A stretch of DNA of 37,374 bases. Origin: Acidobacteriota bacterium (GTDB taxonomy: Bacteria; Acidobacteriota; Terriglobia; Terriglobales; SCQP01). A program made the position numbers and the translations under genes. The notes under the pieces were generated by a model. That model saw nothing but the letters and a program-made list of their open reading frames with translations. It had not been told where the DNA came from and did not search any database. Below, in pieces: positions 15,877 to 37,374 of the stretch. Within the stretch, counting starts at the first letter, position 1. Each line of letters opens with the position of its first letter. Location: positions 1 through 37,374 of the forward strand of contig DAIDIF010000160.1 of the NCBI GenBank assembly GCA_027451805.1, written 5' to 3'.

Positions 15877-18465
15877 ATGCCGCACGATCTCGCCACCCTC
15901 AACTCGCTGCCGCGTTACCTCCTCAGCCTCGCCGGCTTGGGCGAGCGCACGGCGCTGATCGAGCAGCACCTGTACCGCAGCACGCGCGTCTCCTACGCCG
16001 AGCTGCTGGGCAAGGCGAGCGCGTTCCAGCGCGAACTGGAGCGCCGGGGCATCGGGCGCGGGCAAAGGGTGATGCTCTGGGGCGCGGCGGGCGTGGCCTG
16101 GGCGGCGGCGTTTTACGGCTGCGTGCTGGCGGGCGCGGTGGTGGTGCCGCTGGACGCGGCCTTTTCGCCCGAGCTGGCGGGCAAGGTGCTGCAGCAGACG
16201 GAAGCGGCGCTGCTGTGCACCGACCACGAGGCCGCGCTGGGCGCGGCACGGATGACGTTTGCCGAGATCGCGGCGCTGGCGCCGGCGCCGCTGCCGGCCG
16301 CGCCCGCCGACCCCCCGCCGGACACGCTGCTGGAGATTGTCTACACCTCCGGCGCCACCGCCGAGCCCAAGGGCGTGATGATCACCCACGGCAACGTGCT
16401 CGCCAACCTGCGGCCCATCGCCAAGGAAGTGGCGAAGTACAAGCCGCGGATGCGGATCGTGCTGCCGATCCGGTTCGTCCACCTGATCCCGCTCAGCCAC
16501 CTGTTCGGGCAGGTGATGGGGCTGCTCATCCCGCCGCTGGTGGACAGCACGGTGGTGTTTCCCGAATCACAGGCGCCGGCGCAGTGGGCGGCGATCATCC
16601 GCGAGCACCGCGCCTCGGCGCTGGTGGCGGTGCCGCAGCAGGTGCAGTTGTTCACGCAATGGGCGGAGGCGGAAACCGGCGTGGGCCGGGAGCAGGCGCC
16701 GGCGATCAGCCGCGGCCACGGCATGTTTTGGCGGTTCTGGCGCTGGCGCAAGCTGCACCGGCGGCTGGGCTGGAAGATGTGGGCGTTCATCGTGGGCGGG
16801 GCCGCGCTGGCGCCGGCGCTGGACGAGTACTGGCACGCGCTGGGCTACGCCATGGTGCAGGGGTACGGGCTGACGGAGACGGCGCCGGCGATCGCCATCA
16901 CGCACCCCTTCAAGATCCGGCGCGGCACGGTGGGGCAGACGCTGGAGGGGTTGGAAGTCAAGATCGCGCCGGATGGCGAGATCCTGGTGCGCGGGCCCAA
17001 CGTCTCGCCGGGATATTACCGCAACCCGGAGGCGACGGAGCAGACCTTCCCCGGGGGCTGGCTGCACACCGGCGACTTGGGTCGGATGGAGCCCAACAAG
17101 ATGCTGGTGTTTCTCGGGCGCAAGAAGGAAGTGATCGTCACGCCCGAGGGGCTGAATGTGTTTCCGGAGGACGTGGAGCGGGCGCTGGCGCAGCAGCCCG
17201 AGGTGGAGGAGAGCGCGGCGGTGGAGGATACGCGCGCGGGCGGCGGCCAGGTGCACGCGGTGGTGGTGCTGAAGCCGGGCGTGGCGGAAGCCGCGCTGGA
17301 TCGGGCGGTGGCGGCGGCCAACGCAAGCCTCGAGCCGCACCAGCGCATCCGCGCGGCGTCGCTGTGGCCCGGGCCCCACCTGCCGCGCACCACCTCGACC
17401 CGCAAGCTGCAGCGGCTGGCGATTGCGCGCTGGCTGAACCAGGGACAGCCGGCGGCGCCGGCGGCGGGCGGCGACGGGGCGGGCGATTGGAAGGCGTTCG
17501 CCGCGCAGCGCTGGGGCCTGGCGGCGGGGCGGTTGCAGCCGCTGGCGCGGCTGGACAGCGATCTGGGGCTGTCCTCGCTCGACCGGGTGGAGTTGTGGAG
17601 TTGGATCGAGGCGCACACCGCCGGCGGCATCGAGGAGACCGCGCTGACGCTGGCGCAGACGGTGGCGGACGTGGACGCGCTGCTGCGGCACGCGGAAGAC
17701 GGGGCCCCGGAGAGCGCTGGGCCGGCATCGCCGGCGACCATCGCCGGCGCCGGCAAACTCGAAGGCGCGGAACTGCGGGTGCCCGCGCACGAGAAGCGAT
17801 GGCCGCTGCGGCCGGCCTTCCGTCATTTCCGCTCCGCGGCGTACTCGGCCATCGCGCTGCCGGTGCTGCGCACCTCCGTGGTGCGCATCCGGATCGAGGG
17901 GCGCGAGCGCTTCGAGGGCCTTGAGCGGCCGGTGCTCTTCATCGCCAATCACCAGAGCATGCTCGACGTCCCGCTGATTCTGCGCGGCATGCCGCGCGCC
18001 TGGCGGCCGTGGGTGGCCCCGGCGATGGGCATCGAGCCGTTCGCCGGCGCCTTCGACGCCCGCGCCCGCCCCTGGCGGCGCTTCCGCGACCGCTGGCGGC
18101 TGCGCAGTGTGCAGTTGTTCTTCAACGGTTACCTGCTGACCGCCTACGGCGCGGTGGCGGCATCGCTGCGCCATACCGGCCGGCTGGCCGACGCGGGTTA
18201 CTGCCCGCTGATCTTTCCGGAGGGCGCGCGCACCCCGGACGGACGCCTGCATAAGTTCCGGCCCGGCATCGGCGTTTTCGTCGCGGCGCTGCGCTTACCC
18301 GTGATGCCGATCCGCATCGACGGACTTTTCCAGATTCTCCCGGACGGCGCGCTCTACCCCCATCCGGGCGGGGCGAGCGTTCATTTTGGACCAGTTATGA
18401 CGTTTCCGACCGAGACGCCAGAATCTATCACGACGCGCCTCGAATCCTGGTTTACAATCCCATAG
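15877..18465 (+). CDS. Acyl-AMP ligase / acyl carrier domain / PlsC acyltransferase fusion
   Basis: Three domains in one 862-residue chain. Residues 1 to about 510 are an ANL adenylate-forming ligase: phosphate loop 'YTSGATAEPKG' (156-166), 'GYGLTETAP', 'GWLHTGDLG' and 'GRKKEVIVTPEGLNV'. About 520-600 is a carrier domain, 'DSDLGLSSLDRVEL', with the probable phosphopantetheine Ser at 567. About 640-862 is a PlsC-like acyltransferase with 'NHQSMLD' (HX4D, His692/Asp697) and 'FPEGART' (780-786). The arrangement resembles E. coli Aas (fused acyltransferase and acyl-ACP ligase) but in reverse order and with a built-in carrier. It may activate a fatty acid, hold it on its own carrier and transfer it to a lysophospholipid or other acceptor. 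It starts 18 nt after purF and could be read through from it, though the functions are unrelated. Confidence 0.85.
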   Translation: MPHDLATLNSLPRYLLSLAGLGERTALIEQHLYRSTRVSYAELLGKASAFQRELERRGIGRGQRVMLWGAAGVAWAAAFYGCVLAGAVVVPLDAAFSPELAGKVLQQTEAALLCTDHEAALGAARMTFAEIAALAPAPLPAAPADPPPDTLLEIVYTSGATAEPKGVMITHGNVLANLRPIAKEVAKYKPRMRIVLPIRFVHLIPLSHLFGQVMGLLIPPLVDSTVVFPESQAPAQWAAIIREHRASALVAVPQQVQLFTQWAEAETGVGREQAPAISRGHGMFWRFWRWRKLHRRLGWKMWAFIVGGAALAPALDEYWHALGYAMVQGYGLTETAPAIAITHPFKIRRGTVGQTLEGLEVKIAPDGEILVRGPNVSPGYYRNPEATEQTFPGGWLHTGDLGRMEPNKMLVFLGRKKEVIVTPEGLNVFPEDVERALAQQPEVEESAAVEDTRAGGGQVHAVVVLKPGVAEAALDRAVAAANASLEPHQRIRAASLWPGPHLPRTTSTRKLQRLAIARWLNQGQPAAPAAGGDGAGDWKAFAAQRWGLAAGRLQPLARLDSDLGLSSLDRVELWSWIEAHTAGGIEETALTLAQTVADVDALLRHAEDGAPESAGPASPATIAGAGKLEGAELRVPAHEKRWPLRPAFRHFRSAAYSAIALPVLRTSVVRIRIEGRERFEGLERPVLFIANHQSMLDVPLILRGMPRAWRPWVAPAMGIEPFAGAFDARARPWRRFRDRWRLRSVQLFFNGYLLTAYGAVAASLRHTGRLADAGYCPLIFPEGARTPDGRLHKFRPGIGVFVAALRLPVMPIRIDGLFQILPDGALYPHPGGASVHFGPVMTFPTETPESITTRLESWFTIP

Positions 18466-20523: not shown

Positions 20524-21235
20524 TCCGCTGGTATCCGGAGCTGCCCTCGACCCAGTCCGCGGCCTTGCGCGCCGCCCGCGCCGCGAGCGCCGAGGGCACG
20601 GTCTTCGTCGCCGAGCGCCAGACCGCCGGCCGCGGCCGCCACGGCCACACCTGGGCCTCGCCGCCGGGCGCGGGACTGTACTGCAGCCTGCTGCTCTGGC
20701 CGCGCCGCCCGGTCGCGGACCTGCTGCTGCTGACGCTGGCGTCGGGCCTGGCCGCGGCGGATGCGGTGCGCGAGGCGTGCGGGCTCGAGGCCGAGATTCG
20801 CTGGCCCAACGATCTGCTCTTCGCCGGCAAAAAGTTCGGCGGCATCCTGATCGAATCGGCGCTCGAGGGCGGCCGGCTGTGCGCGGCCCTCGGCGTCGGC
20901 CTCAACCTGCGTCCGGCGGCGCTGCCGCCCGAGCTGGCGCCCATCGCCACCGCGCTCGATGACCACCTGCCGCGGCCGTGCGACCGCTGGGCGCTGCTGC
21001 AGGCGCTGGTGGCGAGCCTGGCGCGCCGCTACCGGGCGTGGTCAAACGGCGAGGACGCCGCCCTACTGGCCGAGTTCACCGCACGCTCGCGCTACGCCCA
21101 GGGCCTCGAAGTCGTCGTCGGCGGCGCGGACGGCTACCGCGGCGCCACCGCCGGCCTGGAAGTCAACGGCTTCCTCCGCGTCCGGCTGGCGTCGGGCGAG
21201 GTGCGCACGGTGGTGAGCGGCGACGTGCGCCCGGC

Positions 21236-21239
<4 letters not shown>
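20520..21239 (+). CDS. birA: Biotin--[acetyl-CoA-carboxylase] ligase (no DNA-binding domain)
   Basis: Attaches biotin to the acetyl-CoA carboxylase carrier protein through biotinyl-AMP. 239 residues with 'STQSAALRAA', the biotin/ATP loop 'GRGRHGHTW' (37-45), 'RWPNDLLFAGKKFGGILIE' and 'GVGLNLRP', then a C-terminal SH3-like domain ending 'VVSGDVRPA'. The N-terminal helix-turn-helix of E. coli BirA is absent, so this is the monofunctional class that does not repress biotin genes. The GTG start overlaps the nadC stop. The 3' end overlaps the convergent rlmN gene by 4 nt. Confidence 0.96.
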
Positions 21240-22324
<1,085 letters not shown>

Positions 22325-30625: not shown

Positions 30626-32017
30626 ATGTTTGAACAGGTTCCCACGCTGCTGGAAAAGTTGTTTCTGGGCAAGAGCATCCCGCGGCGCGCGGCCATCGCC
30701 CGGCACGTGCGCCCGGGACTGATCGAGCGCATTCAATTGGCCGAGTTCCGCGGCACGGTGGAGCGGGTGGGGGCGCACAGCGCGTTCTACCGCGAGCGCT
30801 TCCGGGCGGCGGGGATCGAGCCGCGGCGGGTGCGGCGGCCGCAGGACCTGGGCGGGTTCTTCACCACTTCGGCCGACCTGCGCCAGCGCGACACGGCGGA
30901 GTTCGTGTGCGCGCCGCCGCAGGCCGGCTTTGAAACCACCGGCACGACGGCGAAGAACAAGCGGATTTATTTTTCCAACGAGGAAGTGCACGACATCGGC
31001 TTCGAGGGCGCGGTGGGGCTGTGGAACCTGGGACTGCGGCCCGAAGACCGCGTGGTGGACGCCTTCGATTACGCCTTCTGGAACGCCGGCATCACGCTGA
31101 TGCACTCGCTGAACGCGCTGGGCTGCTTCCACATGATCGGCTCGAAGCTGGAGCCGGCGGAGTTTTACCGCCGGGTGAAGGACTACCGGTTCAACGTGCT
31201 CGTGGTGGATACGGCGTGGCTGGTGAGCTTGACCGAGATTGCCCAGCGCGAAGGCGCCTGGCCGGTGAAGTTCATCCTTTCGGGCAGCGAAAACATGAGC
31301 GAGTCCACGCGGGCGTGGATCGAATCGGTGTGGGGCGGCAAGGTGTATCTGGCCTACGGGCAGACGGAAACGTTGGGCGCGAGCGGCATCGAATGCCCGG
31401 CCCAGCGCGGCTATCACCTGAACGAGCTCAACTTCCTGTTCGAGATCATCAACCCGAACGCGCAAGGCTATGGCGAATTGGTGTGCTCGACGCTCACGCG
31501 CAAGGTGATGCCGCTGGTGCGCTACCGCTCGAACGACATCACGCGCTTTGTGGACGAGCCCTGCGGCTGCCTGCTGCAGCACCTGCGCCGGATCGATAAA
31601 ATCCAGGGGCGCGGGGACGAGATCGTCTCCTGCGGCATGGGAATGATCAGCCCGTGGATCTTCGAAGCCTGGCTGGGCAGCGCGGCCGAGATCGGCGACG
31701 ACTGGCAGGTGGCGGTGCGCCAGCCGGCCACACGCGACGTGATCGAGGTCCGGGTGGAGATGCGCAGCGGAGTCGAAACGCCGGCCGCCGAGGTGGAAGA
31801 AGGGCTGATGCGCCGCTTTCAAGAGATGTATCCCTACTACGGCAAGAACCTGCAGATGGGGATGTTTGAGTTGGGGGTGCAGATCCTGCCCCGGGGGACG
31901 CTGCGCGGCCGCTCGCCGGAAGGGCAAGCGGCCGGGAGCCGGCGCAAGCTGCGGCGGGTGGTCGACGAGCGGGTCGCCGCGGCGGCGCTGCCGGCGGACA
32001 GCGTTAAAGACCTTTAA
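30626..32017 (+). CDS. PaaK-like adenylate-forming acyl/aryl-CoA ligase
   Basis: 463 residues related to phenylacetate-CoA ligase. Expected chemistry: a carboxylic acid plus ATP gives the acyl-AMP, which is then passed to CoA or a carrier thiol. Visible motifs are the phosphate-binding 'FETTGTTAKNK' (about 105-115), 'YGQTETLGASG' (from about 244) where the AMP-binding region lies, and 'PLVRYRSNDITRF' in the hinge region. The C-terminal domain appears to carry extra basic sequence ('GSRRKLRRVVDERV'). It resembles the PaaK-type ligases found beside fatty-acid-like biosynthetic genes more than the phenylacetate catabolic enzyme: no paa genes are nearby, but ACP, FabZ and ketosynthase genes follow on the same strand. 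TATGAT 27 nt upstream may be its -10. The substrate is unknown. Confidence 0.85.
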   Translation: MFEQVPTLLEKLFLGKSIPRRAAIARHVRPGLIERIQLAEFRGTVERVGAHSAFYRERFRAAGIEPRRVRRPQDLGGFFTTSADLRQRDTAEFVCAPPQAGFETTGTTAKNKRIYFSNEEVHDIGFEGAVGLWNLGLRPEDRVVDAFDYAFWNAGITLMHSLNALGCFHMIGSKLEPAEFYRRVKDYRFNVLVVDTAWLVSLTEIAQREGAWPVKFILSGSENMSESTRAWIESVWGGKVYLAYGQTETLGASGIECPAQRGYHLNELNFLFEIINPNAQGYGELVCSTLTRKVMPLVRYRSNDITRFVDEPCGCLLQHLRRIDKIQGRGDEIVSCGMGMISPWIFEAWLGSAAEIGDDWQVAVRQPATRDVIEVRVEMRSGVETPAAEVEEGLMRRFQEMYPYYGKNLQMGMFELGVQILPRGTLRGRSPEGQAAGSRRKLRRVVDERVAAAALPADSVKDL

Positions 32018-32039
32018 TCCTGTTTTAACCGCCGGTTAA
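32004..32039. promoter_or_regulatory. Two AT-rich inverted repeats before the inositol-phosphate synthase gene
   Basis: TTAAAG-AC-CTTTAA (32004-32017, including the ligase stop codon) and TTAACC-GCC-GGTTAA (32025-32039) are both perfect. Their centres are about 21.5 bp apart, close to two DNA turns, and both carry TTAA at each end. They are conspicuous in this GC-rich DNA. A pair of operator sites for a dimeric regulator is one reading; a short mRNA hairpin is another. Confidence 0.45.
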
Positions 32040-32095
32040 TCGGCGCTCGGGGAGAATTTCTCATTAGAGTTGTTGCGTTCCAAGAGGAGAGCTCA

Positions 32096-33385
32096 ATGAG
32101 CCATTCGGCAGGTGCGGCCCAGCCGCGTTTGGGTGTGCTGTTGGCGGGCATGGGGGCGATCTCGACCACGCTGATCGCGGGAGTGGAAGCCATCCGGCAG
32201 GGCTTGGCGCGGCCCTTCGGCGCGCTGACGCAATTGGCCATGATCGCGCCGCCGGGGCAGCCCAAGCAGCGGGTCCCGCTGGCGGAGTATCTGCATTTGA
32301 CGCGGCTGGAGGATCTGGCCTTCGGCGGGTGGGATATCAACCCGGGCAACGGCTACGACATGGCGGTGGCGTCGGGGGTGCTGGAACCGCTGCTGCTGGC
32401 GGCGGTGCGGCCGGCGCTGGAGCAGGTCGAGCCGATGGCGGGCATCCACGACCCGCAGTACCTGCGGCGCACGGAAGGGCGGCGGGTGAAGGCGGAGACC
32501 AACAAGTTCGAGCAGGCGGAGGCGCTGCGCGCCGACATCCGCCGCTTCAAGCAGCAGCGCCAGGTGGACCAGGTGGTGGTGATGTGGTGCGGCTCGACCG
32601 AGGTGTTTTTGGCCGCCGGGCCGGCGCATCAGAGCCAGCGCATCTTCGAAGCGGCGATGAAGGAGAACGAGCCCACCATCGCGCCCAGCATGATCTACGC
32701 CTACGCGGCGCTGCAGGAAGGCTGCGGGTTCGTGAACGCGACGCCGACGCTGACCGTGGACATGCCGGTGATGATCGAGCTGGCGGCGCAGCGCGGCTGC
32801 CCGGTCAGCGGCAAGGATCTGAAGACCGGGCAGACGCTGCTCAAGACGATCCTGGCGCCGGGCATCAAGCAGCGCATGCTGGGGCTGTCGGGGTGGTTTT
32901 CGACCAACATCCTGGGCAACGGGGACGGGGCGACGCTGGACGATCCGGCGGCGTTCCGCAGCAAGGAAGAGTCGAAGCTGTCGGCGCTCAACCACATTTT
33001 GCAGCCGGAGCTGTATCCGGAGCTGTACGGCAAGCTCTCGCACCAGGTGAAGATCAACTACTACCCGCCGCGCGGCGACAACAAGGAAAGCTGGGACAAC
33101 GTCGATATCGTCGGGTGGCTGGGCTATCCGATGCAGATCAAGATCAACTTCCTCTGCCGCGACAGCATCCTGGCGGCGCCGTTGCTGCTCGATCTGGCGC
33201 TGCTCAGCGCGGCCGCGCAGCGGGCGGGGGAGAACGGCGTGCTCGACTGGCTGGGCTTCTACTTCAAGAGCCCGCAGACCAAGCAGGGACAGCCGGAGCA
33301 CGACCTGGCGGTGCAGCACCAGAATCTGCAGCAGGCCTTCCACCGCATGGCGCCGCGTCTGGCGCCGGCGGCGGTCAAGGCCTAA
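32096..33385 (+). CDS. Myo-inositol-1-phosphate synthase (Bacteroidetes-like type)
   Basis: Isomerises glucose-6-phosphate to inositol-3-phosphate with NAD as internal redox cofactor, the only de novo route to inositol. 429 residues. Family signatures are the NAD-binding 'GVLLAGMGAISTTLIAG', 'FGGWDINPGNGYDMA', 'APSMIYAYAALQEG', the catalytic 'VSGKDLKTGQTLLKTILAP', 'GWFSTNILGNGDG', 'NYYPPRGDNKESWDNVDI' and 'KINFLCRDSILAAPLLLDL'. From memory, these resemble the Bacteroides enzyme tied to inositol lipid synthesis more than the roughly 360-residue actinobacterial Ino1. AAGAGGAGAG 5 nt before the ATG is a strong ribosome site. It is the second gene of the ligase-to-ketosynthase run, 78 nt after the ligase and 109 nt before the reductase. 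Confidence 0.93.
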   Translation: MSHSAGAAQPRLGVLLAGMGAISTTLIAGVEAIRQGLARPFGALTQLAMIAPPGQPKQRVPLAEYLHLTRLEDLAFGGWDINPGNGYDMAVASGVLEPLLLAAVRPALEQVEPMAGIHDPQYLRRTEGRRVKAETNKFEQAEALRADIRRFKQQRQVDQVVVMWCGSTEVFLAAGPAHQSQRIFEAAMKENEPTIAPSMIYAYAALQEGCGFVNATPTLTVDMPVMIELAAQRGCPVSGKDLKTGQTLLKTILAPGIKQRMLGLSGWFSTNILGNGDGATLDDPAAFRSKEESKLSALNHILQPELYPELYGKLSHQVKINYYPPRGDNKESWDNVDIVGWLGYPMQIKINFLCRDSILAAPLLLDLALLSAAAQRAGENGVLDWLGFYFKSPQTKQGQPEHDLAVQHQNLQQAFHRMAPRLAPAAVKA

Positions 33386-33421
33386 GCGGGCGGAAGCCGC
33401 AGCCCAGTGTGTGGACACGCA

Positions 33422-33439
33422 CGCCGGAGCGATCCGGCG
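33422..33439 (+). other. Intra-operon hairpin with GNRA loop
   Basis: CGCCGGA-GCGA-TCCGGCG, a perfect 7-bp stem closed by a GCGA (GNRA) tetraloop, lies in the 109-nt gap between the inositol synthase and reductase genes. There is no T-tract, so full termination is unlikely. Stabilisation of flanking mRNA or partial attenuation is possible. Confidence 0.4.
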
Positions 33440-33494
33440 CGGCGGCGCGGCAAAGCAACGCCCCCAGGGCGCACAGCAACAGCAAGGAGACGGC

Positions 33495-34262
33495 GTGGCG
33501 GACGAACTGAAGGGCAAAGTAGCGTTGGTGACCGGGGCGGCGCGCGGCATCGGGCGCGCCATCGCGCGGCGGCTGGCGCAAGGCGGCGCGGACCTGCTGG
33601 TGAACTACGTGACCAGCGAGGCGGCGGCGCAGGCCTTGGTGGAGGAGATCCGCGGGCTGGGGCGGCGGGCGCAGGCGGTGAACGCGGACGCGATCAGCCC
33701 GGAGGGGATCGCCAAGCTGTTCGCGGCGGTGAAGGAACACTTCGGCGCGCTCGACATTTACATCAACAACGCGATTGACGTGGCCACGTACGGGCCGGTG
33801 CTGCGGCAACGGCTGGAGGGCTGGGACCACACCGTCGGCGGCAACACCGATGCGCTGCTGCTCAGCGCGCAGAAGGCGGTGCCGTTGATGAAGGGACGGC
33901 GGGGCAAGATCCTCAGCCTCTCGAGCCTGGGCTCGACGCGCTATATTCCCGGCTACGCCTCGATCGGCGTGACCAAAGCCGCCACCGAGGCGCTGACGCG
34001 CTACCTGGCGGTGGAGTTGGGCAAGCACGGCATCAACTGCAACACCCTGTCGGGCGGCCCGATTGACACCGACGCGCTCAAGCTGTTTGCCAATTACGAG
34101 CAGATGAAGGAAGCTTGCGAGAAGTATTCGCCGGCGGGCCGGATCGGCCGGCCGGAGGATCTGGCCGAGGTGGCGGCGTTTTTGTGTTCGGACGCCGCGA
34201 ACTGGATTTACGGCCAAACCATCATCGCCGACGGCGGCCTGTCGCTGCTGAGCGTCGGCTAA
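33495..34262 (+). CDS. FabL-like enoyl-[ACP] reductase (short-chain dehydrogenase fold)
   Basis: 255 residues. NAD(P)-binding 'VTGAARGIGRAIA' (Gly14/18/20) and 'NNAIDV' mark the SDR fold. The active-site motif is Tyr154-x6-Lys161 ('YASIGVTK'), the spacing of FabI/FabL enoyl reductases rather than the Tyr-x3-Lys of ketoreductases. 'SSLGSTRYIPGY', 'EALTRYLAVEL', 'SGGPIDTDALKLF' and 'GQTIIADGGLSLL' agree closely, from memory, with Bacillus subtilis FabL. The likely role is reduction of enoyl-ACP using NADPH. GTG 33495 has AAGGAG 5 nt upstream, which rules out the ORF-track start at 33411 that runs through the hairpin. It lies 36 nt before the carrier protein gene. Confidence 0.85.
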   Translation: MADELKGKVALVTGAARGIGRAIARRLAQGGADLLVNYVTSEAAAQALVEEIRGLGRRAQAVNADAISPEGIAKLFAAVKEHFGALDIYINNAIDVATYGPVLRQRLEGWDHTVGGNTDALLLSAQKAVPLMKGRRGKILSLSSLGSTRYIPGYASIGVTKAATEALTRYLAVELGKHGINCNTLSGGPIDTDALKLFANYEQMKEACEKYSPAGRIGRPEDLAEVAAFLCSDAANWIYGQTIIADGGLSLLSVG

Positions 34263-34298
34263 CGCGTTTCTGAATCTGTCCGCAAGGAGCCAAAGACG

Positions 34299-34784
34299 AT
34301 GCCCGAAGTCAACAGCGCCAACGCCGCCGAAGTCATGAAGATCCGCGAAACCGCCGATCGCGTGCTGGCGAAGCGGCACGACGAGATCCTGGCCACGGTG
34401 TGCGCCTCGGTCGCCGAGGTCCTGGGCCGCGAGGAGAACGAAGTGCAGGCCACCAGCAGCCTGATGAACGACCTGAACGCCGAGTCGCTGGACTTTCTCG
34501 ACCTGCTGTTCCGCCTGGAGTCGGCCTTTGGAATCAAGATTCCGCGCGGCGGCATCCAGCGCGCGACGCAGGGCTCGCTGACGGAAGCCGAGTTCCAGCA
34601 GAACGGCATTCTGACGGCGGCGGCGCTGGAGCGGCTGCGCATCCTGATGCCGGAGGTGGATGCGACCAAGCTGAAGACGGGGCTGACGGTGCGCGAGATA
34701 CCCACTCTGTTCACCCCGGAGACGTTCGCCCGCCTGGTGGCGTGGCGCATCGGCGAGATGGAAGCGGAGAAGGCCGCGGTTTAG
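34299..34784 (+). CDS. Long acyl carrier protein
   Basis: 161 residues, twice the normal ACP length. About 22-85 is an ACP helix bundle: 'VCASVAEVLGREENEV', then 'LNAESLDFLDLLFRLE' with the probable phosphopantetheine Ser63 in an ESLD context (DSLD in standard ACP). Instead of ending after helix IV, the protein continues with 'LTAAALERLRILMPEVDATKLKTGLTVREIP' (part: 'ALERLRILMPEVDATKLKTG') and 'TLFTPETFARLVAWRI', the last segment resembling an ACP helix IV displaced by an insertion of about 45 residues. AAGGAG lies 10 nt before the ATG. Its position between the reductase and the dehydratase implies it carries the chain made by the following ketosynthases. Confidence 0.85.
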   Translation: MPEVNSANAAEVMKIRETADRVLAKRHDEILATVCASVAEVLGREENEVQATSSLMNDLNAESLDFLDLLFRLESAFGIKIPRGGIQRATQGSLTEAEFQQNGILTAAALERLRILMPEVDATKLKTGLTVREIPTLFTPETFARLVAWRIGEMEAEKAAV

Positions 34785-34796
34785 GCCGACCTGGCG

Positions 34797-35297
34797 ATGC
34801 GCTACCTGCTTTTGGACCGGATCGTGGAGCTGGTGCCCGGCCGCTACGCGGTGGGGCACAAGTGCGCGGCGATGAGCGAGGATTATTTCGCCGACCATTT
34901 CCCCGGCTTCCCCGTGGTGCCGGGGGTGCTGATCGTGGAAGCGATGGCGCAGCTCGCCGGCCGGCTGATCACCTATACGGTCAAGCGGGAAAGCGGGGAG
35001 ACGGCGCTGCCGGTGCTGCTCACGGTGCACAACGCGCGCTTCAAACGCTTCGTGCGGCCGGGGGACCTGATGGTCATCCGGGCGGAGCTGGCGGGCATGG
35101 TGGAAGGCGCGGGGCGGTGCCGCGCCGAAGCCAAAGTCGGCGAGACCGTGGTGGCGACGGCGGAACTGATGCTGGGCTACGACACCGGCCAGGGGAACGT
35201 GATTCCGCCGGAGGCGCGGGCGGGGCTGGCGCAATGGGCGGAAACGGTGAATCGTACGCTGCTGGCGGGGCTGGAGCCGGAGGCGGCGCAGCCGTGA
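34797..35297 (+). CDS. FabZ/FabA-like 3-hydroxyacyl-[ACP] dehydratase
   Basis: 166-residue hot-dog-fold protein. The catalytic pair is His34 in 'DHFPGFPVVPGVL' and Glu48 in 'VEAMAQLAG', 14 residues apart as in FabZ. 'RFKRFVRPGDLMVI' is the standard central-strand signature. An extension of about 20 residues follows the core ('EARAGLAQWAETVNRTLL'). It removes water from 3-hydroxyacyl chains on the carrier, giving the trans-2-enoyl form for the FabL-like enzyme. It begins 12 nt after the carrier gene and overlaps the first ketosynthase by 4 nt (GTGA), so it is co-translated with it. No ketoreductase (FabG) is seen in the run so far. Confidence 0.93.
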   Translation: MRYLLLDRIVELVPGRYAVGHKCAAMSEDYFADHFPGFPVVPGVLIVEAMAQLAGRLITYTVKRESGETALPVLLTVHNARFKRFVRPGDLMVIRAELAGMVEGAGRCRAEAKVGETVVATAELMLGYDTGQGNVIPPEARAGLAQWAETVNRTLLAGLEPEAAQP

Positions 35298-36613
35298 GCG
35301 CGCCGTTGTCGCCGCGGCAGCGGGCGCGCCCGGACGGGGGGCGGCGGGTGGTGATCACCGGCTTGGGCGCGATCACGCCGCTGGGGCATACCGTGGCGGA
35401 GACCTGGGACGGGCTGGTAGCCGGCCGGTGCGGCATCGGGCCGCTGACGCTGTTCGACGCCGCCAGCTTCGAGACCCGGATCGGCGGAGAGGTGAAGCAC
35501 TTTCAGCCGCAGCTGGTGCGGACCCAGGCGCGCGCGGCCGTCGCCGAGGCGCTCGACCGCAAGAACGCGCTGGGGTGGGTCGCGGCCCAGGAGGCGTTTC
35601 GCGACGCCGGGTTCCAGCCGGGGGAGGGCTACGAGCCCGGCCGGATGGGGATTGCGCTGGGCACCGAGGGGCGGCGCGACAGCCTGCTGCCCGAGCTGGC
35701 GCAGCGCAAGCTGCGGGCGGGAACGCCGGCGCAGCGGCGGGCAGCGCTGGCGGAGGTGCCAGCGTGGGAGTATCTGCGTTACTCGCCCTACGGGTTGGCC
35801 TACGCCCTGGCGGCACAGTTCCACGCCCGCGGGCCCATCACCACGATTTCGACCGCATGCACCTCGAGCTCGCAGGCGCTGGGCTTTGCGCTCGACAAAA
35901 TCCGGCACGGCGAGGCGGACCTCATGCTGGCGGGCGGGGCGGAGTGCCTGATGGAGCCGACCATGGTGGCGGGCTTCATCCTGCTGGGCGCGCTGTCGAA
36001 GAACAACGAGCACCCGGAGTTGGCCTCGCGGCCGTTCGACGCCGAGCGCGACGGGTTCGTGCTGGCGGAAGGCGGGGCGATGCTGGTGCTGGAAGACGCC
36101 TGGCACGCCTACCAGCGGGGCGCGCGGATCTACGCCGAACTGGCGGGGTTCGGCGCCTCCATCAACGCCTACCGCATTACCGATTCGCCCCCCGACGGGC
36201 AGGGGCCGATGCTGGCGATGCAGGCGGCGCTGGCGGACGCGAATCTGGCGCCGCAGCAGGTGGATTACATCAACGCGCACGGCACCTCGACGGTGCAGAA
36301 CGACGCCAGCGAGACGATGGCGATCAAGCGCTGTTTCGGCGAGCACGCCTACCGCATTCCGGTGAGCTCGACCAAATCCATGACCGGGCACATGGTCAAC
36401 GCCGCCGGAGCGATCGAGGCGATCATCTCCACCAAGGTGATCGGCGAGGGGTACATCCCGCCGACGATCAGCTACCAGCACCCCGACCCCGCCTGCGACC
36501 TGGACTACGTGCCGAACCAGGGGCGGCGGCAGCGGGTGCGGACGGTGGCGAGCAACTCCTTCGGGTTCGGCGGATCGAACGGCAGCTTGGTGTTTCGCGC
36601 CTATGAACCCTAA
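35294..36613 (+). CDS. Beta-ketoacyl-[ACP] synthase, FabF-like (first of two)
   Basis: 439-residue thiolase-fold condensing enzyme. The Cys-His-His triad is Cys189 ('STACTSSSQALG'), His329 ('NAHGTSTVQND') and His366 ('TGHMVNAAGA'), with Lys361 just before it ('STKSMTGH'). 'NSFGFGGSNGSLVF' closes the fold. It catalyses decarboxylative condensation of malonyl-ACP with an acyl primer. GTG 35294 overlaps the dehydratase stop codon; the ORF-track start at 34400 runs through other genes. The gene overlaps the next ketosynthase by 11 nt. Given the neighbouring ACP, FabZ and FabL-like genes, this is more likely part of a dedicated pathway than the housekeeping fabF, which usually sits with fabD, fabG and acpP. 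Confidence 0.94.
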   Translation: MSAPLSPRQRARPDGGRRVVITGLGAITPLGHTVAETWDGLVAGRCGIGPLTLFDAASFETRIGGEVKHFQPQLVRTQARAAVAEALDRKNALGWVAAQEAFRDAGFQPGEGYEPGRMGIALGTEGRRDSLLPELAQRKLRAGTPAQRRAALAEVPAWEYLRYSPYGLAYALAAQFHARGPITTISTACTSSSQALGFALDKIRHGEADLMLAGGAECLMEPTMVAGFILLGALSKNNEHPELASRPFDAERDGFVLAEGGAMLVLEDAWHAYQRGARIYAELAGFGASINAYRITDSPPDGQGPMLAMQAALADANLAPQQVDYINAHGTSTVQNDASETMAIKRCFGEHAYRIPVSSTKSMTGHMVNAAGAIEAIISTKVIGEGYIPPTISYQHPDPACDLDYVPNQGRRQRVRTVASNSFGFGGSNGSLVFRAYEP

Positions 36614-37374
36614 CGGCAACGGAGCCAAGCCGTCCGGCGGGCGCACGGTGGTGATCACCGGCGTGGGGCTGGTGTCGCCCTTGGGCAACTCCGCGCCCGA
36701 GCTGTGGCAGGCGCTGCGGGCGGGGCGGAGCGGCATCGGGCCGGTGCCGCACCTGGCGCTCGACGCCTACCGCACGCGGGTGGGGGGAGCGGTGCGGGAT
36801 TTCCAGCCGCGGCAGTACATCGCCGACGGCAAGTCGCTGAAGCTCATGACGCGCCCGGTGCGGCTGGGAGTGGCGGCGGTGGAGCTGGCGGTGCGGGACG
36901 CGGGACTGAGCGCGGCGGCGGCGCTGGCCGAACTCGATCCGGCGCGCATCGGCTGTTTCGTCGGTTCGCCCGGGCACGCCGGCGACCGCGACGAACTGCT
37001 GCCGGCGCTCGACCTGTCCTACGGGGAGCATGGGCTGGACCTGCGCGCGTTCGGCGCCGACGGGATTCCCACGATCAACCCGCTCTGGCTGCTCAAGAGC
37101 TTGGCCAACCTGGTGCTCTACTTCGTCAGTCTGCGGCTGGGGGCGCAGGGCGCCAACGCCAACATCTGCATGAGCGGAGCCGGCGGCGCCATGGCCGTCG
37201 GCGAAGCCTTTCAGACCATTCGCGCCGGCGCCGCCGACATCGCCATCGCTGGCGGCTACGAGTCGCTCCTGGATGAAGAGCGTCTGGAAAGCTTCGAATC
37301 CAGCGGGCTGCTGTATCTGGGTAACGGCGAACCGGAGCGGGCCAGCCGCCCCTTCGATCGCGAGCGCGGCGGCT
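36603..37374 (+). CDS. Second beta-ketoacyl synthase (3' end beyond window)
   Basis: ATG 36603 lies 11 nt before the stop of the preceding ketosynthase; the frame stays open to the window end (257 codons), which is why the ORF track omits it. The N-terminal signature 'RTVVITGVGLVSPLGNSAPE' and 'FVGSPGHAGDRDELLPALD' identify the fold. The nucleophile region 'NICMSGAGGAMAVGEAF' keeps Cys189, the same residue number as in the first enzyme. It is therefore not a classical chain-length factor, which lacks the Cys. The two His residues lie beyond the end. Sequence between residues 60 and 160 differs clearly from its neighbour, so it is a paralogue of separate specificity rather than a recent duplicate. 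Confidence 0.88.
   Translation, partial: MNPNGNGAKPSGGRTVVITGVGLVSPLGNSAPELWQALRAGRSGIGPVPHLALDAYRTRVGGAVRDFQPRQYIADGKSLKLMTRPVRLGVAAVELAVRDAGLSAAAALAELDPARIGCFVGSPGHAGDRDELLPALDLSYGEHGLDLRAFGADGIPTINPLWLLKSLANLVLYFVSLRLGAQGANANICMSGAGGAMAVGEAFQTIRAGAADIAIAGGYESLLDEERLESFESSGLLYLGNGEPERASRPFDRERGG

Follow-up and report, generated by a model that had tools for sequence, protein, structure and literature searches.

A seven-gene run at the contig end

The window, by which we mean the whole 37,374-nucleotide stretch of acidobacterial DNA that was analysed, ends with seven genes between positions 30626 and 37374. Open reading frames and Pfam domains place all seven on the plus strand with the predicted domains in each, in agreement with an earlier sequence-only reading that had named these enzyme types. 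The run opens with PaaK1 (30626..32017; 463 aa; Pfam AMP-binding), a PaaK-like adenylate-forming, acid-activating ligase, followed by MIPS, a cluster-specific second copy of myo-inositol-3-phosphate synthase (32096..33385; NAD_binding_5 270 bits, Inos-1-P_synth 109 bits), the FabL-like enoyl-ACP reductase SDR1 (33495..34262), an acyl carrier protein (ACP) of 161 aa with a C-terminal extension of about 80 residues (34299..34784; Pfam PP-binding), and a FabZ-like 3-hydroxyacyl-ACP dehydratase (34797..35297; Pfam FabA-like; fabZ E 3e-32). Two genes of the ketosynthase (KS) type complete it: FabF-type KS1 (35294..36613) and the 5' part of KS2 (36603..37374). The GTG start of KS1 overlaps the FabZ stop by 4 nt (GTGA), and KS2 overlaps KS1 by 11 nt. 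The "several" overlapping starts and stops noted earlier are thus real but number only these two, the remaining intergenic gaps being 12-109 nt.

Position 37374 is also the end of contig C160, and it falls inside KS2. The gene is full length in three relatives (L030, L034 and L036), and in comparison with the nearest of these, L030, dN/dS is 0.07-0.12 for each gene of the run. All seven genes are under purifying selection.

A twelve-gene cluster in one acidobacterial family

Relatives supply the rest of the cluster, which reads PaaK1-MIPS-FabL-ACP-FabZ-KS1-KS2-FabG-KS3-KS4-PaaK2-DegT. All 12 genes are intact and in this order in six genomes of the window's family, a group of uncultured Acidobacteriota (f1), and the other f1 genomes are collinear up to their contig limits, with one exception: in G007, PaaK1 lies on another contig, unlinked to the rest. 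Gene-order conservation had been proposed as a check on the idea of a single pathway, and that idea comes through it unrefuted. The FabG/KS3 segment is missing from the assembly of the window's own genome, which has a gap between contigs C160 and C75.

Past KS2, the relatives encode FabG, the KS-type proteins KS3 and KS4, another ligase (PaaK2) and DegT, an aminotransferase. FabG directly follows KS2, so its reported absence was an artefact of a window that stops at a contig end; FabD and FabH, also reported as lacking, are indeed absent from the full cluster. Of the functions anticipated beyond 37374, the ketoreductase is there as FabG, but no CDP-alcohol (phosphatidyl)transferase, glycosyltransferase, exporter or thioesterase is encoded within the cluster, nor is a phosphatase or an acyltransferase. 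Homologs of SDR1 in Aquificota, Deltaproteobacteria, Omnitrophica and Chloroflexota have no other cluster genes nearby. A full-text literature search, which did not reach subscription journals, found no published account of this cluster.

Ligases and chain-building enzymes

PaaK enzymes require free acids. The cluster ligases have the AMP-binding fold, P-loop, YGxTE motif and C-terminal lysine of the PaaK-like group, and both PaaK1 and PaaK2 keep the catalytic residues. PaaK1 matches phenylacetate-CoA ligase 4r1l in the PDB (E 3e-33), and its ETTGTT and YGQTE motifs and C-terminal K441 are invariant among 11 orthologs. Terriglobia families other than f1 have a different PaaK-containing cluster (ACP-KS-MGDG-synthase-like GT-PaaK-HAD-class III aminotransferase). 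It likewise sets a PaaK-family ligase beside an ACP, a KS and an aminotransferase, but it has a sugar transferase and a class III aminotransferase and lacks MIPS, DegT and a chain-length factor (CLF). The PaaK of family f5 falls in a separate clade, and a search of f1 for the f5-type class III aminotransferase returned only generic homologs (28-35% over most of their length).

SDR1, which starts at GTG 33495 behind an AAGGAG, has FabL 3oic as its best PDB match (E 2.7e-61) and scores 284 bits against the NCBIfam FabL model, below the cut-off of 328. We considered and rejected a role as inositol dehydrogenase, since its Y182-x6-K189 motif and its similarity to FabL favour an enoyl reductase. 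In the ACP, alignment places the phosphopantetheine site in AESLDFLDL; fold searches gave weak matches throughout, the best being the specialised ACP RPA2022 (E 0.01). FabZ keeps its catalytic motif (HFPGFPVVPGVLIVEAMAQ).

The sequence-only reading had counted two ketosynthases in the window. KS1 has the Cys-His-His triad, as does KS4, but KS2, a ketosynthase by fold, lacks the catalytic cysteine, as does KS3. The latter is half-size (263-341 aa), and its AF2 model was unsuccessful (pLDDT 33). Judged from their residues, KS2 and KS3 look like chain-length-factor partners; KS1 and KS4 are probably active ketosynthases, with KS1-KS2 and KS4-KS3 as the putative pairs. The chain-length factor ApeC is likewise half-size and has lost its cysteine (PMC8358021). 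KS2 was also tried as a phylum-wide marker and discarded, because the threshold was too lax and ordinary FabF was recovered everywhere.

MIPS, DegT and the head group

Among PDB structures, the nearest match to cluster MIPS is 7nwr (E 3e-133), the inositol-3-phosphate synthase of Bacteroides inositol-lipid synthesis. Residues K290, K294, K330, D356 and K391 are invariant. A second MIPS, of the class-wide type, is encoded elsewhere in the window's own genome, and the gene is duplicated in 12 of 14 f1 genomes, this one included, whereas nearly all other Terriglobia genomes have one. The cluster enzyme is a dedicated second copy and, with its catalytic Lys and Asp residues retained, the cyclitol source expected for aminocyclitol biosynthesis.

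DegT keeps the PLP lysine (K210) but reached no curated family over its cut-off, and its best PDB matches are sugar and other aminotransferases, among them 8gyh, perosamine synthetase and AHBA synthase. Outside f1, its orthologs lie in f56 and f31, distant Acidobacteriota of classes other than that of f1, in cassettes free of chain-building genes. In f56 the order is PaaK-DegT-inosose dehydrogenase, the last an IolM (493 bits, cut-off 450); in f31 it is PaaK-Gfo/Idh(IolG-like)-DegT-MIPS. Ligase and inositol synthase standing apart from the ACP-KS genes had been named beforehand as a point against a single pathway. Such separation does occur, in four f31 genomes, but there the two genes lie beside a cluster-type DegT and an inositol-dehydrogenase-like gene, which strengthens the link to inositol. 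The f31 Gfo/Idh scores 118 bits against an IolG cut-off of 355. As the missing dehydrogenase of f1, a protein of this type or IolG was rejected: no f1 genome has one over the IolG cut-off, and the window's own genome gave no match.

An IolM homolog over the cut-off is present in 11 of 13 f1 genomes and, of the two families compared, in none of eight genomes of the sister family f2. In the window's own genome it scores 476 bits and is encoded outside the cluster. The f1 gene may act in a different path, since it lies in trans and has a two-component system and a class I aminotransferase as neighbours. The NCBIfam IolM reaction acts on scyllo-inosose, not myo-inositol. The company that DegT and PaaK keep with inositol and inosose dehydrogenases in f56 and f31, together with IolM in f1, points to amino-inositol as a more likely head group than inositol.

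A proposed amino-inositol lipid pathway

We favour, with moderate confidence, a model of a 12-gene pathway, opened by the seven genes of the run, that couples a type II acyl chain to amino-inositol. A special acyl chain joined to inositol in one pathway had been suggested before; the special chain and an inositol-derived group are retained here, and the head group is what changes. A dedicated type II acyl synthase (the long ACP, FabZ, FabG, the FabL-like reductase and two KS with CLF-like partners) would build a special long chain. Cluster MIPS would convert glucose 6-phosphate to inositol 3-phosphate, which would lose its phosphate to an enzyme outside the cluster set; the IolM-like dehydrogenase encoded elsewhere would oxidise inositol to inosose, and DegT would transaminate inosose to amino-inositol. 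The PaaK-like ligases would activate carboxylates, PaaK1 probably to prime or load the chain and PaaK2, adjoining DegT, probably to join chain and amine or to finish the lipid. We infer the substrates, the KS-CLF pairing, the length and saturation of the chain, the amide bond and a membrane lipid as product.

Several observations count against amino-inositol. The cluster has no phosphatase, thioesterase, acyltransferase or exporter of its own, and its ligases depend on free acids. IolM lies in trans and its family reaction is on scyllo-inosose, the f31 Gfo/Idh falls short of the IolG cut-off, and DegT has sugar and other aminotransferases as its structural matches and no curated-family assignment. 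PaaK1 is unlinked in G007, and the AcpXL fold resemblance of the ACP is weak.

Alternative readings

The cluster could instead make an aryl-polyene or flexirubin-like pigment, with PaaK1 activating an aryl acid, two KS-CLF pairs extending it and MIPS and DegT making a polar decoration. Two Cys-less KS-fold proteins beside active KS, the ApeC-like size of KS3, and weak, below-cut-off resemblances of the PaaK ligases to FlxY and of FabG to FlxB are in keeping with this. We nevertheless think it unlikely: an enoyl reductase of the FabL type speaks for a reduced chain, KS1 is FabF-like without specific affinity to aryl polyene (APE) enzymes, and the cluster has one ACP, not two, and no acyltransferases, exporter or thioesterase.

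DegT might aminate a sugar nucleotide or an AHBA-type aryl precursor, as its PDB matches would allow, giving an aminosugar lipid or an aminoaryl polyketide. This is quite unlikely, given that no nucleotide-sugar enzymes lie beside DegT in the variants read and that inositol or inosose dehydrogenases adjoin it in f56 and f31. It is improbable, too, that MIPS supplies ordinary inositol phospholipids and the acyl genes a special fatty acid for them, with DegT serving another purpose. The kinship of MIPS with 7nwr fits such a role, but f1 already has the class-wide MIPS, the cluster lacks a CDP-alcohol transferase, and DegT belongs to the conserved set and is found in other classes alongside PaaK and inositol dehydrogenases. 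Chance adjacency of unrelated genes, for which one could cite the unlinked PaaK1 of G007, is contradicted by the six complete loci, whose 12 genes follow a single order, by the collinear fragments of the other genomes, by the low dN/dS and by PaaK-DegT(-MIPS) cassettes in other classes, and we regard it as most improbable.

Relation to known systems

Aminocyclitol pathways (streptomycin StrI/StsC, 2-deoxystreptamine) use an inositol or inosose dehydrogenase with a DegT-family aminotransferase. Our amino-inositol model would share this pairing, with MIPS in addition; unlike those pathways, the cluster has no glycosyltransferase or kinase genes and is tied to acyl-chain synthesis and PaaK-like ligases. 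With 7nwr-type inositol-lipid systems it shares the type of MIPS, but it lacks their phosphatidyltransferase and phosphatase and has DegT and a type II acyl synthase.

The Rhizobiales cluster for very-long-chain fatty acids runs acpXL-fabZXL-fabF2XL-fabF1XL (PMC11901934), so that a dedicated, specialised ACP, a FabZ and two FabF-type KS stand in the same ACP-FabZ-KS-KS order, albeit with only the weak likeness of our ACP to RPA2022. The acpXL-lpxXL cluster has no ligases, MIPS, DegT or FabG and enoyl reductase of its own, all present here; the acidobacterial cluster lacks the lpxXL acyltransferase and has double the number of KS-type genes. Aryl polyene clusters also have a ketoreductase, a dehydratase, starter activation and co-directional, overlapping genes, and they combine a KS with a half-size, catalytically dead CLF, a pairing that may recur here with KS3 (PMC8253772, PMC8358021). 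Their transport and attachment genes, methyltransferase, thioesterase and second ACP are absent here, and the enoyl reductase, MIPS, DegT and second ligase go beyond them.

Acidobacteriota abound in soil, most of them uncultured, and genes have not been assigned to many of their membrane lipids. We tentatively propose a new bacterial lipid class, which would have arisen in a single acidobacterial family through the capture of a chain-building module by an older PaaK-DegT amino-inositol cassette. If the model is true, PaaK-like ligases would have the further, putative function of joining acyl chains to amines, and the pathway is compact enough to be amenable to expression in a laboratory host. 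Such a pathway, present across a whole family and equipped with a dedicated chain builder for a lipid headed by amino-inositol, would then define a new class of lipid and a possible biomarker.

The twelve-gene cluster and its conservation

The sequence-only reading had described seven co-directional genes at 30626-37374, and all seven are present with the domains it had named: a PaaK-like ligase (PaaK1), myo-inositol-3-phosphate synthase (MIPS), a FabL-like reductase (SDR1), an ACP, FabZ, and two ketosynthase-fold proteins (KS1 and KS2). The window is all of contig C160, from a 3.16-Mb acidobacterial draft genome of 305 contigs, and stops within KS2. The most likely start of SDR1 is GTG 33495, which is preceded by AAGGAG. 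KS1 starts at GTG 35294 with a 4-nt overlap with the FabZ stop, and the overlap between KS1 and KS2 is 11 nt. Compared with the nearest relative (locus L030), each gene has a dN/dS of 0.07-0.12, and therefore all of the genes are under selection.

In relatives, the gene order is PaaK1-MIPS-SDR1-ACP-FabZ-KS1-KS2-FabG-KS3-KS4-PaaK2-DegT, ending in a second ligase and an aminotransferase. Within f1, the family to which the window belongs, six genomes (G004, G005, G006, G008, G009, and G010) have all twelve genes in this order on a single contig; in G001, G002, G003, and other drafts the loci are collinear as far as the contigs extend. The genome that the window comes from has KS4-PaaK2-DegT on contig C75 (L062), and the FabG/KS3 segment is missing from its assembly. 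The sole exception to the order is G007, with PaaK1 beside glmU on contig C39 and MIPS to DegT on C45. PaaK-family matches occur in every f1 genome tested; in the sister family, f2, none of 46 genomes has one. The cluster contains no phosphatase, thioesterase, acyltransferase, or exporter gene.

Chain-building enzymes and ligases

SDR1 is closest to FabL and carries Yx6K, the motif of SDR-family enoyl reductases. FabG passes the curated FabG cut-off (307 versus 298 bits), and catalytic motifs are retained in FabZ, MIPS (with residue roles that we take to be those established for yeast MIPS), DegT, PaaK1, and PaaK2. The ACP is extended at its C terminus, and the model predicted for it (pLDDT 74) bears a weak resemblance to the specialised ACP RPA2022. 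The Cys-His-His triad is retained in KS1 and KS4, which group together in a tree, and the cysteine is lost from KS2 and KS3, which sit on long branches. By best PDB match KS1 and KS2 are FabF-derived. At 263-341 residues KS3 is half-size, and since ApeC, the chain-length factor of aryl polyene synthases, likewise has roughly half its ketosynthase's size (PMC8358021), two pairs of ketosynthase and chain-length factor are a reasonable inference.

PaaK1 and PaaK2 fall in a clade with ligases of families f10, f31, and f56, with f5 ligases apart. Within it PaaK2 pairs with the f56 ligase (moderate support, 80/86). Both adjoin DegT, and PaaK2-DegT may thus be the older pair and PaaK1 a copy recruited to the chain builder. 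By eye, an MglA-like small GTPase gene lies immediately upstream of PaaK1 in some genera (L125 6662-7249; L123 5842-6429; L061 16757-17344, minus strand), and is absent there in the window's genus.

Other ligase genes were also seen. Two further Terriglobia families (f5: L085-L089, L092, L093; f10: L083, L084) share a conserved cluster of a response regulator, ACP, KS, MGDG-synthase-like glycosyltransferase, PaaK-family ligase, HAD phosphatase, and class III aminotransferase, with an extra FabZ-like gene in f10, and this appears to be a further uncharacterised amino-lipid pathway. At 15877-18465 the window itself encodes an 862-aa protein in which an AMP-binding ligase is fused to a PlsC-type acyltransferase; by eye, an ACP-like stretch separates the two.

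Links to inositol and to an amino group

MIPS was found in 277 of the 299 Terriglobia genomes searched, almost always as one copy. Genomes of f1 carry two, a cluster copy (~760-860 bits) and a class-wide copy (~570-597 bits). Both were seen in the genome of the window, in G004, and in 10 of 12 further f1 genomes; completeness is 54% and 88% for the two that have only one. A second, dedicated copy of an enzyme of primary metabolism is to be expected of a special pathway.

Outside f1, DegT orthologs were found in only 5 of 247 genomes sampled phylum-wide. G474 (f56) has the order PaaK-DegT-zinc dehydrogenase, and this dehydrogenase scores 493 bits against the curated IolM (scyllo-inosose 3-dehydrogenase) cut-off of 450. 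Four f31 genomes have a cassette of PaaK, a Gfo/Idh/MocA dehydrogenase, DegT, and the genome's only MIPS, with ACP and KS genes absent; the best curated family for the dehydrogenase is inositol 2-dehydrogenase, at 118 bits, under its cut-off of 355. Where readable, a patatin-like lipase/phospholipase gene lies immediately upstream of PaaK in three of the four (L140, L142, L143), and could be a source of free fatty acid for the ligase.

The search for IolM covered genomes of f1, f2, and f56. A homolog above the cut-off is encoded outside the cluster in 11 of 13 f1 genomes, including the window's own (G000:C216:38046-39188, 476 bits), and in 0 of 8 f2 genomes; the two f1 genomes that lack it have completeness values of 73% and 54%. 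It would fill the oxidation step required before transamination. Around the f1 homolog, a response regulator, a histidine kinase, a metallo-hydrolase-like gene, and a class I aminotransferase form a conserved block (L160 4654-10210; equivalents L162-L165). Because this gene thus has its own conserved surroundings, including a two-component system and an aminotransferase, it may have a role separate from the cluster.

In several f1 genomes a short ClpB-like AAA ATPase gene adjoins DegT (L062 4353-5384; L128 3373-4485; L125/L126 join 20849-21874). In G004 an AAA-HAD-PanC block adjoins IolM instead (L164 2429-3993), a rearrangement that brings IolM and the DegT flank into one neighbourhood.

A candidate pathway

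The sequences themselves show the gene content and order, selection, intact motifs, the dedicated MIPS, and that DegT and PaaK are associated with inositol dehydrogenases; the proposed explanation that fits best is a twelve-gene pathway for an amino-inositol lipid. Inositol 3-phosphate would be dephosphorylated, oxidised, and transaminated to an amino-inositol, and the type II module would build a special long chain, probably reduced. Of the PaaK enzymes, which would activate acids, one would act when the chain is begun and the other at coupling.

Clusters with acpXL and aryl polyene clusters are each partly alike in chain building, but defining features of both are lacking here; aminocyclitol pathways are partly alike in the head group. 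Full-text literature searches found no description of this cluster. An amino-inositol lipid has about an even chance of being the product. The enzyme families are all known; their combination and the proposed product are not, and no described set among those found matched.
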